34,837 bases of DNA from a candidate division Zixibacteria bacterium SM23_73_2 (GTDB lineage: Bacteria; Zixibacteria; MSB-5A5; SM23-73-2). Shown piece after piece: positions 27,230 to 33,325 of this stretch. Where the stretch lies: positions 1-34,837 of the forward strand of contig LJUW01000009.1 of NCBI GenBank assembly GCA_001304315.1, written 5' to 3'. Position 1 is the first letter of the stretch, and each line of letters begins with the position of its first letter. The notes under the pieces are model-generated. The model worked only from the letters and a program-made list of their open reading frames with translations. It made no database searches and was not told the DNA's origin. The position numbers were made by a program, and so were the translations under genes.

Positions 27230-28462
27230 ATGGTTGAGCTTTTCAAATTAATCTTAGTCTTTGTTCTTATCATCCTTTTAATCCAGAGGAAAATATCCAT
27301 AGGATTGACCATCCTTTTAGGGGCGTTGTTTTTAGGTTTTCTATTCAAGCTCTCGGTTTTGGATTTAGTAAAATATATGGCAGTAGCAGCTGTGGAATGG
27401 CCCACTTTACACCTGCTTATAATAGTGCTTTTGATTTTGATTTTTGGAGAGCTTTTGAAGAATCTGAGAAGCCTGGAGAATTTAAGTTCGGGTCTGGAGA
27501 ATTTATTCAGAAATACAAAACTACTTTTAATTTTTCTACCTGCCACTGTGGGGCTTTTGCCCATGCCTGCGGGAGCGATGATGTCCGCTCCCATGGTGGA
27601 GGAGGTGGGAAACAGGAAAAAAATAACACCCGGGCTCAAGATGATGGTGAACTACTGGTTCCGGCACATCCTGGAGTTTATCTGGCCTCTCTATTTAGGG
27701 GTGATCCTCACCGCCTCGCTTCTGGGAATCCATTACCGGGAGGTTATATTAGCCCAGCTGCCTTTGAGCCTGGCTATGATTTTGGGAGGGATTTTGTTCT
27801 GCTCAGGTAAAATAAAAGTCGAAGGTGAGACCTTTCCATCCGAAAAAAAATTTACAGAAAATATGGGTCTGGTTTTAAAAGGGATCTGGCCGGTGCTTCT
27901 GGTGGTGGGTTTGAATCTGATATTCAGAATGGATCTGGCTTTAGCTCTGGGAATAACCATTGTTTTCTTGGCTTTTACCAGCAAGGTTGGAATCAAAAGA
28001 TTTTGGGGAATGATCAAAGATGCTGTTACCCTGGAGATGGTGGTATTGATTATAGCGGTTATGATATTCAAAAAGATCATCACCGAATCCGGTGCCATAG
28101 AGACCATACCCAAAACCATAGCGGAGTTCGGCATTTCCCCGATCTTTGCCATCATAATCGTCCCCTTTACCGTGGGAATTTTAACCGGTATGACCTCAGC
28201 TTTTGTTGGAATCTCATACCCCATACTCTTTTCTTTTCTTTCGCCCAATGGGATAAATTACGGATACATGATGCTGGCTTACGGTGCTGGTTTTGCGGGG
28301 GTTATGCTTTCACCGCTTCATCTTTGCCTGATCGTAACCAAGAATTACTTCAGGGTAGGGTTTAATGAGATCTATTCGATGCTTTTGCCCGCTTCCCTTT
28401 TTTTGATTATCTGGGCTCTGGTTTTAGTTCTTCTGGGTTTTCCCTGGGGCAAAATCGGTTAG
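27230..28462 (+). CDS. DUF401 family integral membrane protein
   Basis: 410 residues, about 10-11 hydrophobic helices. The segment LLPMPAGAMMSAPMVEEVG near residue 108 and NYWFRHILEFIWPLYLGVIL are characteristic of the DUF401 family, an uncharacterised group found mainly in archaea and anaerobic bacteria and distantly similar to ion or citrate/gluconate permeases. A second GMTSAFVGISYPIL repeat-like segment near 324 supports an inverted-repeat transporter. The substrate is unknown. No clear ribosome binding site precedes the ATG at 27230. The next gene, an ECF sigma factor, begins about 90 nt downstream, so co-transcription is possible. Confidence 0.88.
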   Translation: MVELFKLILVFVLIILLIQRKISIGLTILLGALFLGFLFKLSVLDLVKYMAVAAVEWPTLHLLIIVLLILIFGELLKNLRSLENLSSGLENLFRNTKLLLIFLPATVGLLPMPAGAMMSAPMVEEVGNRKKITPGLKMMVNYWFRHILEFIWPLYLGVILTASLLGIHYREVILAQLPLSLAMILGGILFCSGKIKVEGETFPSEKKFTENMGLVLKGIWPVLLVVGLNLIFRMDLALALGITIVFLAFTSKVGIKRFWGMIKDAVTLEMVVLIIAVMIFKKIITESGAIETIPKTIAEFGISPIFAIIIVPFTVGILTGMTSAFVGISYPILFSFLSPNGINYGYMMLAYGAGFAGVMLSPLHLCLIVTKNYFRVGFNEIYSMLLPASLFLIIWALVLVLLGFPWGKIG

Positions 28463-28549
28463 GTTTTTGGGTTTTAAAGCTGGAACAAAAAAAACCACAG
28501 GTTGTATAAATAGATGGACAGGAAAAAGGAAAAAGAAAAAGGAAATCGG

Positions 28550-29155
28550 ATGGATGGCAAAGCTGTCCCGGACAATGAACTGTTTAAAAGGGTCCTGGAT
28601 GAGGATAGGATTGCTTTTGAGGCTTTGGTTAACCGTTATAAGATTAAACTATATAATTTGGTATATCGGATGTTAGGAACGAAAGAGGAAGCAGAGGATA
28701 TCTTGCAGGAGACTTTCTTAAGAGTTTACCGGGAGAGAAACTCATTTGATTTCAACTATCAGTTCTCCACATGGATTTACACCATTGCATTGAACCTGAC
28801 AAGAAACGAGCTCAAAAAGAAAAAGAGGTTTAAGTTCTTCGGATTGGAATCGCTTCTGAGAAAACCAGCTCAGAGTTACCTTTCCGAAGATTTCGGTAAC
28901 TTCAAAGGAGAGTTTCAATATTATTTAGAGAAGGAGATGAAATCTCTGCCTGAGAAATATAAAAAAGCCTTTTTGCTCAGGGACATAAATGAGCTTTCGT
29001 ATGAGGAGATATCAAACGTTCTGGAAATTCCTTTAGGCACAGTGAAATCCCGGGTCAACCGGGCAAGAGGGATTCTGAGGAAAAAGCTAAAGCCCAAAAT
29101 GGAGGGAGTTTATGAATTGTCGAAAGGTTCGACAATACCTGCCGAGCTATTATGA
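28550..29155 (+). CDS. ECF-type RNA polymerase sigma factor
   Basis: 201 residues. Region 2 (about 25-90) contains FEALVNRYKIKLYNLVYRM, EEAEDILQETFLRVYR and FSTWIYTIALNLTRNEL, while region 4 (about 130-180) contains LPEKYKKAFLLRDINELSYEEIS and the helix-turn-helix IPLGTVKSRVNRARGIL. This is an RpoE-like group. I chose the ATG at 28550, which has AAAAAGGA 6 nt upstream; the ATG at 28514 has none and would add 12 Lys-rich residues. Its 3' end overlaps the anti-sigma gene by 44 nt, the usual arrangement for translational coupling. It probably controls envelope-stress genes, including its own operon. Confidence 0.94.
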   Translation: MDGKAVPDNELFKRVLDEDRIAFEALVNRYKIKLYNLVYRMLGTKEEAEDILQETFLRVYRERNSFDFNYQFSTWIYTIALNLTRNELKKKKRFKFFGLESLLRKPAQSYLSEDFGNFKGEFQYYLEKEMKSLPEKYKKAFLLRDINELSYEEISNVLEIPLGTVKSRVNRARGILRKKLKPKMEGVYELSKGSTIPAELL

Positions 29156-29741
29156 CGAGTGTTTATCGGTTGAGGTAAAGAAGGATATAGAGAAACACCT
29201 GAAGGAGTGCAAAAGCTGCGCCAGGGAAGCAAAGGCTTATTTTGAGCTTTCGGAGATGATAAATTGCGCTAAGGTTTTAAAACCTTCCCCGGATTTCAAC
29301 AGAAAGCTCTTCGCTGAAATAGAGAGGTACCCTAATTCAAAAAAGATAGAGGAGCTGAAACCCCAAACCCTTTTCCCCAGAAGATGGGCGATTGCGGTTT
29401 CAGCAGCAGTTGTAATTCTTCTGAGCATAGTGATATTTAAACCGCTTGGTCTTTTTGAATCAGAAAAAGGGGTCTCCCCCCAAAGGGATAACTTCTTAAC
29501 CAGAATAAATACGGAGAGCCAGCAGAGTGAATACCCTCAGGATAAGCCTACTACCTATGTAATGGATAACCTGAGATTAAGAGAACTTAGCCCCAGGGGA
29601 GATAGACAGCCAGAAAGCGGAAACCTCTCCCAGTTCGTGATCGAGAAGGTTAGTTCTCAATACGAGTGGAGAAGATATCAAAGCCATTACGTGATTCCTA
29701 TGGTGTCTTCACAGGCAGTGGCAAAAAGAAGGGGATTTTAA
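29112..29741 (+). CDS. Anti-sigma factor with zinc-finger (ZAS/zf-HC2) domain
   Basis: 209-residue single-pass membrane protein that should hold the ECF sigma factor inactive. The zinc anti-sigma motif is exact: C3, then 25 residues, H29, then C33 and C36 (HLKECKSC). A transmembrane helix follows at about 92-109 (WAIAVSAAVVILLSIVIF), leaving a 100-residue extracytoplasmic part that ends in MVSSQAVAKRRGF. It overlaps the sigma gene and is followed after 12 nt by the HtrA-like gene. In the known RseA/DegS pattern such a protein is cut on the outside by a PDZ protease. The protease-like neighbour here lacks its catalytic His and Asp. Confidence 0.93.
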   Translation: MNCRKVRQYLPSYYDECLSVEVKKDIEKHLKECKSCAREAKAYFELSEMINCAKVLKPSPDFNRKLFAEIERYPNSKKIEELKPQTLFPRRWAIAVSAAVVILLSIVIFKPLGLFESEKGVSPQRDNFLTRINTESQQSEYPQDKPTTYVMDNLRLRELSPRGDRQPESGNLSQFVIEKVSSQYEWRRYQSHYVIPMVSSQAVAKRRGF

Positions 29742-29753
29742 AGGAGGTTTAAG

Positions 29754-31238
29754 ATGAGATATAAAGTCAGTTACTTTTTAACAATACTTTTTATTTTTTC
29801 CTTTCTTTTGTGTCCTTTTCAAAAAGAGACCTTTGCTCAAAAGAGGGTACTTGAGTCCTTAGAGGAAAGCATTGCTTTACTGGTAGAAAAAACCAAACCG
29901 TCTCTGGTAACCATTCAGGGGAAAAAGGAGGATCTGGCAGCTCAGTTCTTTTACTCCCAGTACGGTAAGAAAAAGGAAAAGGCTCCTTATGCGACCTTTG
30001 TTGGCTCGGGCCTGGTCTACCGACCGGACGGTCACATTCTGACCACCACCAGCGTGGCAGGTGGTTTGAACGTGTTCAAGATCACCCTGCCTGACGGGAG
30101 TGAGGTCAAGGGAAACCTGGTTGGAACGGACGATCAGTACAATCTGGCAGTGATAAAGGTTAACCAGAAGGAACTGACCCCTGCCAGAATGGGAAACTCC
30201 GATCAGGTGAGGGTGGGCTCCTGGGTTACGGTGGTGGGGAACTCCTACGGGGTGCCCAATGCGGTCTCCTTTGGAGTGGTCAACGGAATCAGAAAAGATG
30301 GGCTTATCCAGATGAGCGCCAACGTCAGCCCGGGTAACTCCGGAGGACCGGTTTTGAACACCAGAGGTGAGGTGGTGGGAATAGTCTCGGTGAAGGTGTC
30401 GGATCCTTCCTTTATCGAGGCGGTGAGAATGGTTCAGGAGGGCAGGAAAAATACCATAGTCATACCTCCCAGGCAGATAGAGCTTCCCTCCGGGGTGAGC
30501 CTGGCAATTCCAATAAACGAGGTGAGGAAAATAGCGGATAAGATAATCGAGTACGGAACCATACAGAGGGGTTATCTGGGAATATACCCCTCGGATTTGG
30601 ATGATCAGCAGAAAAAGGAACGTGGAATATCGCAGGGGGTCTATATCGAGGAGGTGGTTGAGGGGAGCCCCGCTGATTTATCCGGGATTGAGGATGAGGA
30701 TATCATCGTGGAATTCGGTAAGCAGAGGGTCAGAGATGAGAGCCATCTTCGCAAACTGATACTGGATACCCGGCCCGGCGAGTTGGTGGAGATCAAGGTA
30801 TTGAGGGAAGGCGAGGAGAAGACAGAGGAGAGGTCCTTGGTTGCCACAATTAACAAGGCAGAGCCGCTCTATGGAGTTTACAGTCATGACAACTACCCCT
30901 CCGAACCTGACGAGGTCCTCATCCCCGAATATGAGATACCGGAGGTCTCGGAGATTCCGGATTTGAAGGAGATAAAGCTCTCCACCCAGATAGTGAAGGA
31001 AAATCAAAAGCAGATCAAAAAGCAGATGGAGGAGTTCCAGAAGCAGATCCAGGTTCAAAAACAGTATCAAATATCATTGGATGAGTACCTGGCGCAGTTG
31101 AAACAGTCTCAAAAAAAGAAAGGTGAATTTGAAAGCGAAAGCTTTGAGTTATCCAGGGAGGAGCTGCAAAATCTGAAAATTGAGCTGGAGATGTTAAAGA
31201 AGGAACTGGAGGAACTTAAAAAATCCAAAAACCCTTGA
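29754..31238 (+). CDS. HtrA/DegP-like protein with degraded catalytic triad (probable pseudoprotease)
   Basis: 494 residues. A signal peptide or anchor (1-28) is followed by a trypsin-like S1C domain (about 35-230), one PDZ domain (about 275-370) and a C-terminal coiled coil rich in Gln, Lys and Glu (about 405-494). In the alignment to HtrA, GSGLVYRPDGHILTTTSV corresponds to GSG...G.ILTNNHV, so the catalytic His is S100. VGTDDQYNLAVIKV corresponds to ...TDLAVLK, so the catalytic Asp is N130. Only S196 in PGNSGGP remains. The codons are AGC (30051) and AAT (30141). The fold residues around them are kept, so this looks like a functional non-enzymatic protein, not a decaying gene. It follows the anti-sigma gene by 12 nt with AAAGGAGG, suggesting a role as periplasmic sensor or adaptor. 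Confidence 0.9.
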   Translation: MRYKVSYFLTILFIFSFLLCPFQKETFAQKRVLESLEESIALLVEKTKPSLVTIQGKKEDLAAQFFYSQYGKKKEKAPYATFVGSGLVYRPDGHILTTTSVAGGLNVFKITLPDGSEVKGNLVGTDDQYNLAVIKVNQKELTPARMGNSDQVRVGSWVTVVGNSYGVPNAVSFGVVNGIRKDGLIQMSANVSPGNSGGPVLNTRGEVVGIVSVKVSDPSFIEAVRMVQEGRKNTIVIPPRQIELPSGVSLAIPINEVRKIADKIIEYGTIQRGYLGIYPSDLDDQQKKERGISQGVYIEEVVEGSPADLSGIEDEDIIVEFGKQRVRDESHLRKLILDTRPGELVEIKVLREGEEKTEERSLVATINKAEPLYGVYSHDNYPSEPDEVLIPEYEIPEVSEIPDLKEIKLSTQIVKENQKQIKKQMEEFQKQIQVQKQYQISLDEYLAQLKQSQKKKGEFESESFELSREELQNLKIELEMLKKELEELKKSKNP

Positions 31239-31621: not shown

Positions 31622-33325
31622 ATGAAGGGTGACAAAAAATATGGTCTTTTAGCAGTGGGTCTTGCTTTAATCTCGGTTTTGATTATCTGGATAGTGGGGT
31701 TGGGTGAGGCTCAGGAGAAGGTTAAGGCTGAGGACGTGGAGAAACCAAAGGATACCATGTACTCCTACGTTCAGTTGATCAACTCGGTGGCCTGGAACAT
31801 AGATTCAAGATACGTTGAGGAGGTGGACCGGAAGGAATTGATCTACTCCGGAATAAGAGGAATGCTCGAGATCCTGGATCCCTTCTCCACCATGCAGGAT
31901 AAAAAGGCGCACGATCGGATGATGGAGATAACCCACGGAAAATATGAGGGGCTGGGTATGATGATAGACATAAGGGATGATTGGATCACGGTGATCTCAC
32001 CCATTGAGGGAACCCCGGCTTATAGTAGGGGAATCCGGGCTGGTGACCGGATAATCGAAATCGACGGGGAATCAACCAAGGCTATGACCACCGAGGATGC
32101 TGCCAATCTGATGCGGGGACCAGCAGGGACCGGAGTGGTTTTGACCATCAAAAGGGAGGGGCTGGGGGAGCCTCTGGAATACGAGCTGGAAAGGGCGGTT
32201 ATAACTCTCAAGAACGTTCCCTATTACGGGGTCATTGAGGACGATATTGGTTACGTCCGGCTTTCCAGATTTTCCGAGGATTCGGGAAATGAGCTTGAGG
32301 ATGCGATAAAAAAGCTGAAAAAGGAAAAGATAAAGGGACTGATTTTCGATTTAAGGAGTAATGGTGGCGGGCTTCTGGCTCAGGCAGTGGAAACAGCGGA
32401 CCTCTTTTTAGATCCGGATGAGCTTATCGTTTATACCAAGGGGAGGGATGAGGTCAAAATAAGCGAATTTCATTCCCGCTCCAGATCACTTCTGGGTGAT
32501 ATATCATTGGTGGTTCTGGTGGATGAGGGAACCGCCTCAGCCTCGGAGATTGTATCAGGGGCGATCCAGGACTGGGATAGGGGGGTGGTGGTTGGGGATA
32601 CCACCTTTGGCAAGGGATTGGTCCAGCAGATCTACGAGATGCCGGCTGATGTTTTTCTCAAGCTCACCGTGGCGAAATATTACATTCCCAGCGGAAGGTC
32701 TATCCAGAAACCGGAGAGATCGAAGAAGCATTACACCGAGGATGCCGAGGAGGACAGCACCCAAAAACCAGGGATTTTCTACACCTCAAACGGAAGAAGG
32801 GTTTTTGGTGGGGGAGGGATTATCCCGGACGTGATCTTAGAGGCTGAGGAGCTCAAGCCTATCGAGATAAACTTGGAAAGGCAGCAGATGTTTTTCGATT
32901 TCGCAGTGGAGTACCTTTCAAAAAATAAAGAGGTAACTGAGGATTTCGAGGTTACCGATGAGGTTTTTTCCCAGTTCAAGGATTTCATCAACAGACATGA
33001 TTTTACCTACAAGACCTTTCTGGAGATGGAGCTTGATTCGGTCGAAAAGACTCTAAAGTCCGAGGAAAAAGATGAGCTTTACTCTGACGTGATTAAGGAT
33101 TTCCGCGGTCTGATTGAAAAGGAAAAGGAGCTTGATTTCCAGCGCAGTACCGACTATATCAAAACCAGCATAAAGAGGGACATTCTGAGAAATCTTTTCG
33201 GGGATAAGGCTGTTTACGAGCACGTTATTTTAGAGACCGATCCTGCGGTTAAGAAGGCGATGGAGATATTGACTTCGGGTAATAAGTATACCAGCATCCT
33301 TGAGGGGAAACAGGAGGTGCATTAA
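31622..33325 (+). CDS. C-terminal processing peptidase, S41 family (Ctp/Tsp type)
   Basis: 567-residue serine protease of the periplasm. A signal anchor lies at about 9-29. The first domain has the conserved ILDPFSTMQ near 84. The PDZ domain is about 105-185 (GLGMMIDIRDDWITVISPIEGTPAYSRGIRAGDRIIEIDG). The catalytic core contains DLRSNGGGLL at 243-252, S306 in EGTASASEI, K331 in TFGKGLVQ and Q335. The spacing S306-K331-Q335 equals that of B. subtilis CtpB (S309-K334-Q338, from memory), so the Ser/Lys dyad is intact. The C-terminal 180 residues are a charged helical extension that makes it longer than CtpA/CtpB. It follows the HtrA-like protein and could supply the proteolytic activity that protein lacks. 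Confidence 0.94.
   Translation: MKGDKKYGLLAVGLALISVLIIWIVGLGEAQEKVKAEDVEKPKDTMYSYVQLINSVAWNIDSRYVEEVDRKELIYSGIRGMLEILDPFSTMQDKKAHDRMMEITHGKYEGLGMMIDIRDDWITVISPIEGTPAYSRGIRAGDRIIEIDGESTKAMTTEDAANLMRGPAGTGVVLTIKREGLGEPLEYELERAVITLKNVPYYGVIEDDIGYVRLSRFSEDSGNELEDAIKKLKKEKIKGLIFDLRSNGGGLLAQAVETADLFLDPDELIVYTKGRDEVKISEFHSRSRSLLGDISLVVLVDEGTASASEIVSGAIQDWDRGVVVGDTTFGKGLVQQIYEMPADVFLKLTVAKYYIPSGRSIQKPERSKKHYTEDAEEDSTQKPGIFYTSNGRRVFGGGGIIPDVILEAEELKPIEINLERQQMFFDFAVEYLSKNKEVTEDFEVTDEVFSQFKDFINRHDFTYKTFLEMELDSVEKTLKSEEKDELYSDVIKDFRGLIEKEKELDFQRSTDYIKTSIKRDILRNLFGDKAVYEHVILETDPAVKKAMEILTSGNKYTSILEGKQEVH

Follow-up and report, generated by a model that had tools for sequence, protein, structure and literature searches.

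The window, by which we mean the whole stretch of 34,837 nucleotides analysed here, comes from the candidate division Zixibacteria bacterium SM23_73_2 and carries an operon whose first gene encodes an ECF sigma factor (28514..29155, + strand). The second gene (29112..29741, +) encodes a zf-HC2 anti-sigma factor with one transmembrane helix and a periplasmic part of ~95 amino acids, and the third (29754..31238, +) is HtrA-like. The sigma and anti-sigma genes, both assigned using Pfam, overlap by 44 nt at the start of the latter. The HtrA-like gene begins 12 bases past the anti-sigma stop codon, with an AGGAGG sequence in the gap, and lies directly after the anti-sigma gene, which is the position of RseB/MucB-type genes. 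Pfam and synteny identify a DUF401 membrane protein upstream (27230..28462, +) and an S41/CtpA-type protease with a PDZ domain downstream (31622..33325, +). The trio of ECF sigma factor, anti-sigma factor and HtrA-like protein occurs in ~80 Zixibacteria genomes, often together with the DUF401 gene, whose place ahead of the sigma gene is conserved in many families. The S41 gene was seen in this position only in the window's genus. In the region ahead of the operon, a search for GGAAC promoters of the ECF type yielded only scattered weak matches.

The HtrA-like protein has 494 amino acids, and comprises a predicted signal peptide, a trypsin-like domain, one PDZ domain and a C-terminal coiled coil. 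The signal peptide is predicted at residues 1-29 (..TFA-QKR; 29754..29840, +) from a hydrophobic stretch and a signal-peptidase-I-like TFA-Q site, both judged by eye. Inspection of the N-terminus revealed no lipobox, and signal-peptide ends resembling AQ or AxA-Q are common to members of the order. Based on these sequence features, the protein is probably soluble and periplasmic. Its Pfam matches are to Trypsin_2 (residues 84-210, E 2e-26) and then PDZ_2 (residues 273-357, E 5e-14; 30570..30824, +), which is the arrangement of the HtrA/Deg family (S1C fold). The PDZ domain has an intact carboxylate-binding loop, GYLGI, and its reading of C-terminal YxF sequences is putative.

An AlphaFold model of the protein (pLDDT 84 on average, and >90 over most of the protease and PDZ cores) consists of two folded domains and one C-terminal helix at residues 405-492 (30966..31229, +). 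This helix, a predicted coiled coil that was also delimited by alignment, is shorter in most relatives. The best Foldseek matches are AlgW, DegQ, MucD and DegS with a bound YQF peptide. The predicted structure thus has the HtrA-type fold that had been expected from the sequence, along with the long coiled coil and the intact PDZ domain.

Alignment with DegQ and DegP, as well as with orthologues, places Ser100 (ILTTTSV; 30051..30053, +) at the position of the catalytic His and Asn130 (YNLAVIKV; 30141..30143, +) at that of the catalytic Asp. The nucleophile position, Ser196, is kept in an intact PGNSGGP motif (30339..30341, +). Against DegQ and DegP the alignment is unambiguous on both flanks of the two substituted sites, and every detail of the earlier, sequence-only reading that could be checked in its description of the protein proved correct. 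At its triad positions, the protein therefore has S100/N130/S196 and not the His-Asp-Ser of an active protease. The same Ser/Asn/Ser combination is fixed in 8/8 order-level members, namely the window protein and seven orthologues from three families. Because these orthologues carry the substitutions at 48-68% identity to the window protein, chance is excluded as their cause. The protein is very likely inactive as a protease. HtrA activity has not been lost from the cell, since three further HtrA genes in the host genome, all on one contig, keep His-Asp-Ser.

On its own, the absence of two catalytic residues could point to a decaying pseudogene or a local mutation. This explanation is refuted by the orthologues: all eight order-level members have the same residues in open reading frames, and the seven with Ser/Asn rule out the case, named in the sequence-only reading as refuting its proposal, in which this copy alone is mutated among relatives with His and Asp. 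Moreover, synteny is class-wide, and dN/dS is 0.03-0.26 in family pairs whose synonymous changes are unsaturated, including 0.026 for two members of family f4. The pair formed by the window and genome G001 has a dN of 0.22 with synonymous sites near saturation. The HtrA-like gene is under strong selection and is not decaying, which leaves the pseudogene explanation with a negligible probability.

Among 85 Zixibacteria members, the triad is complete in only three, all of family f8. At least one triad residue is missing in 82, at least two in 77 and all three in 48. A degenerate triad had been called an uncommon state for a gene at this operon position, but it is instead the rule here. Similarly, the loss of exactly two residues describes the window protein and its order correctly, but not the family as a whole, in which erosion has been stepwise, lineage by lineage. 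Family f10 is the largest, with 49 rows; among its 289 columns, conservation at the His, Asp and Ser sites ranks only 215th, 168th and 184th. Two dozen other columns are invariant, and the core of the fold is kept while the triad columns vary. The alignment is uncertain at the His site of family f11, which is read as Ser or Asp depending on the alignment, and never as His.

The window protein might nonetheless be a protease with an unusual mechanism, in which Ser196 acts with another base or a bound peptide induces a rearrangement, and might cut the anti-sigma factor at the YVxPxV-S/T element described below. Ser196 and PGNSGGP are intact across the order, the three f8 members with a complete triad may still cut, and the V-S/T step appears similar to HtrA cleavage sites. 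However, the 48 members in which His, Asp and Ser are all gone keep the same operon, and we regard this mechanism as improbable.

A tree of the 85 members together with active HtrAs places the members on one side of a fully supported split. Among 387 genomes searched, ten from other phyla have the trio, and the triad is degenerate in 10/10. When these sequences are added to the tree, f8 is nested in a supported clade of degenerate members. Supported branches alone would then call for seven or more separate losses of His, assuming that His was never regained. A single loss within Zixibacteria, with one clade of triad-lacking members, was not rejected on an earlier tree (p-AU 0.105). Because f8 nests among degenerate members and a single loss was not rejected, the history of the triad is either one of massively parallel erosion or includes regain of His, i.e., reactivation, in f8. 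Substitutions fixed in the clade, losses in sister lineages, purifying selection and the intact PDZ domain lend good support to the proposal that the window protein is a pseudoprotease with a binding role. The three other HtrA genes in the host genome further back it.

Pseudoproteases of the HtrA family are not new in kind, since magnetotactic bacteria have MamO and inactive copies of MamE, in which the triad was also lost repeatedly (PMC4794232). These proteins are the nearest precedent for the window's family. MamO has a TauE transporter domain, which Pfam does not find in the window protein, and a metal-binding di-histidine motif, and MamO and MamE belong to a magnetosome context without a sigma/anti-sigma operon. 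What is new here is the inferred role beside an anti-sigma factor, the distribution over several phyla and an anti-sigma tail that matches. Searches of the literature found no paper on Zixibacteria HtrA or describing the operon's HtrA-like family, and nothing of relevance on pseudoproteases paired with anti-sigma factors.

MamE-dependent proteolysis requires MamO, but not the active site of MamO itself (PMC4794232). By analogy, the window protein could join or activate an active HtrA, as part of a mixed trimer or as an allosteric helper, in which case the anti-sigma tail would not be its ligand. The host genome encodes three His-Asp-Ser HtrAs, and HtrA folds are generally known to trimerise. 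This role would, however, leave unexplained both the retention of the HtrA-like gene in the sigma/anti-sigma operon across phyla and the aromatic end of the neighbouring anti-sigma factor, and we consider it rather unlikely.

In E. coli, RseB masks the anti-sigma factor RseA from DegS, whose PDZ domain reads the C-termini of unfolded outer-membrane proteins (PMC8103513, PMC10202637). The window protein resembles DegS and AlgW in having a trypsin-like domain and one PDZ domain, in its link to an ECF sigma/anti-sigma pair and in its fold, as AlgW and DegS-YQF are among the nearest PDB structures. It differs from them in lacking the catalytic His and Asp, so that cleavage of the anti-sigma factor is not expected from its sequence, and, by prediction, in having a signal peptide where they have a membrane anchor. 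In addition, its gene is inside the sigma/anti-sigma operon, and its product has a coiled-coil tail. The likeness to RseB/MucB is of another sort: each is periplasmic and non-enzymatic, has its gene immediately behind that of the anti-sigma factor, and is proposed to bind and protect the periplasmic part of the latter, but the folds are unrelated. The window protein matches only Trypsin and PDZ families in Pfam, without a MucB_RseB fold, and a profile search for RseB (MucB_RseB, PF03888) gave no match in the host genome, which is 86% complete. An RseP-like M50 protease is present in this genome.

MucD, whose structure is among the best fold matches, is the HtrA of algU-mucABCD, which is also a sigma/anti-sigma operon. 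MucD is considered an active serine protease, in contrast to the window's family, which is mostly inactive.

The periplasmic tail of the anti-sigma factor, HYVIPMVSSQAVAKRRGF-COOH (29685..29738, +), combines a YVxPxV-S/T strand with a C-terminal aromatic residue, and is the proposed ligand of the PDZ domain. Of 83 anti-sigma factors encoded in such operons, 82 end in an aromatic residue (62 Tyr, 20 Phe), compared with 5/43 for further zf-HC2 proteins encoded in Zixibacteria genomes (Fisher p ~1e-25, uncorrected for shared ancestry). The five exceptions among these controls (L159, L160, L173, L176 and L200) have tails resembling FASSY or FASSF. The last position of the operonic proteins has an entropy of 0.89 bits, versus 3.1-3.7 bits at positions -2 to -5. 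Members outside f10 often have a Y-[VI]-[LIM]-P-x-V-[ST] element ~12-16 residues before the end, and f10 has a different strand, similar to RPVVRVY. Outside the phylum, the tail is aromatic in 7/10 cases. On the side of the HtrA-like protein, the tabulated rows of each family group show the carboxylate loop of the PDZ domain in the form [YF]-x-G-x.

The anti-sigma tail resembles that of an outer-membrane protein, because Omp85 proteins also end in Phe or Tyr (23/24 examined in the order and class). In an AlphaFold model of a read-through fusion of the anti-sigma tail and the HtrA-like domain, the tail is disordered (pLDDT <50) and does not dock. This result is weak evidence, since the fusion blocks the free C-terminus that the PDZ domain would need.

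Some genomes keep the sigma/anti-sigma pair without an adjacent HtrA-like gene, namely four of family f7 (L252-L255) and one of family f15 (G049, L257). No full-length match to the family was found elsewhere in these five genomes. The four f7 anti-sigma factors end in Arg (two) or Tyr (two), and the retained Tyr ends are a point against binding of the tail by the PDZ domain. In G049 (f15) the anti-sigma factor is shortened, with His as its last residue, whereas in three f15 relatives that have the HtrA-like gene it ends in Phe. In total, the tail is aromatic in 82/83 cases with the HtrA-like gene versus 2/5 without it (Fisher p 4e-4). The sequences suggest that loss of the gene is accompanied by loss of the aromatic end (3/5), although the comparison is no proof because it reflects only about two independent losses.

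This association bears on another explanation, in which a different PDZ protein reads the aromatic tail (an active HtrA, an RseP-like site-2 protease or an S41/CtpA-type protease), and the pseudoprotease does no more than act as a periplasmic chaperone, co-expressed under stress. In E. coli, DegS exposes a C-terminus of RseA that was suggested to contact the PDZ domain of RseP (PMC10202637), and the host genome has an RseP-like M50 protease. The S41 protease with a PDZ domain downstream of the operon is a possible alternative reader, but its adjacency is restricted to the window's genus. A different reader also does not predict that the aromatic end should tend to vanish with the HtrA-like gene. 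We therefore view this explanation as unlikely.

A triad-less, DegS-like fold with a PDZ domain adjoins an anti-sigma factor with an aromatic tail, no RseB was detected, and an RseP-like protease and His-Asp-Ser HtrAs are present. For these reasons, the most economical interpretation is an HtrA fold that serves as an RseB-like shield. From the triad loss, conservation, operon, intact PDZ domain and aromatic tails that we observed, we infer steps of binding, shielding and competition. The HtrA-like protein is made from the same operon as the ECF sigma factor and the membrane-bound anti-sigma factor, and most likely uses its PDZ domain to hold the latter by its C-terminal Phe or Tyr. The YVxPxV-S/T strand, ~12-16 residues upstream, may rest in the dead active-site cleft. 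Such a two-point grip would be like that of DegP, which holds one stretch of a substrate in its catalytic centre and a C-terminal portion in PDZ1 (PMC11642142). Held in this way, the anti-sigma factor would be protected against site-1 proteolysis, as RseA is by RseB. Unfolded outer-membrane proteins, with the same aromatic end, would compete for the PDZ domain, leaving the anti-sigma factor open to another protease and setting the sigma factor free.

We consider it likely that the HtrA-like protein acts physically on the anti-sigma factor. That it is a periplasmic, DegS-like pseudoprotease that works by binding, as a shield with a PDZ grip on the tail and competition from outer-membrane proteins, is somewhat favoured, and the full competition model has roughly an even chance. 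The broadest version is plausible but more tentative: HtrA pseudoproteases encoded in such operons, an old family that spans several phyla, would sense envelope stress, with the anti-sigma factor's imitation of an outer-membrane protein end filling the PDZ domain until unfolded proteins displace it, and repeated catalytic loss would have built an RseB-type regulator from a DegS-type protease.

The window protein is probably a stress-sensing lock and not a knife. If so, a stress-sensing protease can, without losing its position in the circuit, become a receptor that no longer cuts, and one clade preserves active, half-dead and fully dead versions side by side. The free aromatic C-terminus of the anti-sigma factor would be a concrete candidate ligand that can be tested with peptides, and the model would provide an envelope-stress mechanism for phyla known mainly from metagenomes.

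Additional variants were observed. The host genome encodes a second degenerate HtrA-like protein (L006; G000:C27:7798-8202, - strand, 341 aa) with Asn/Asp/Cys at the triad sites, whose gene adjoins a His-Asp-Ser HtrA gene (L002). Two f11 proteins of 684 and 756 aa (L096 and L097) have extra PDZ-like repeats after the first PDZ domain and an insertion in the His loop. Finally, 49/49 f10 rows have a new invariant pair of Cys residues, in the columns of window residues 153 and 176, that is absent from the window protein and possibly forms a disulfide.
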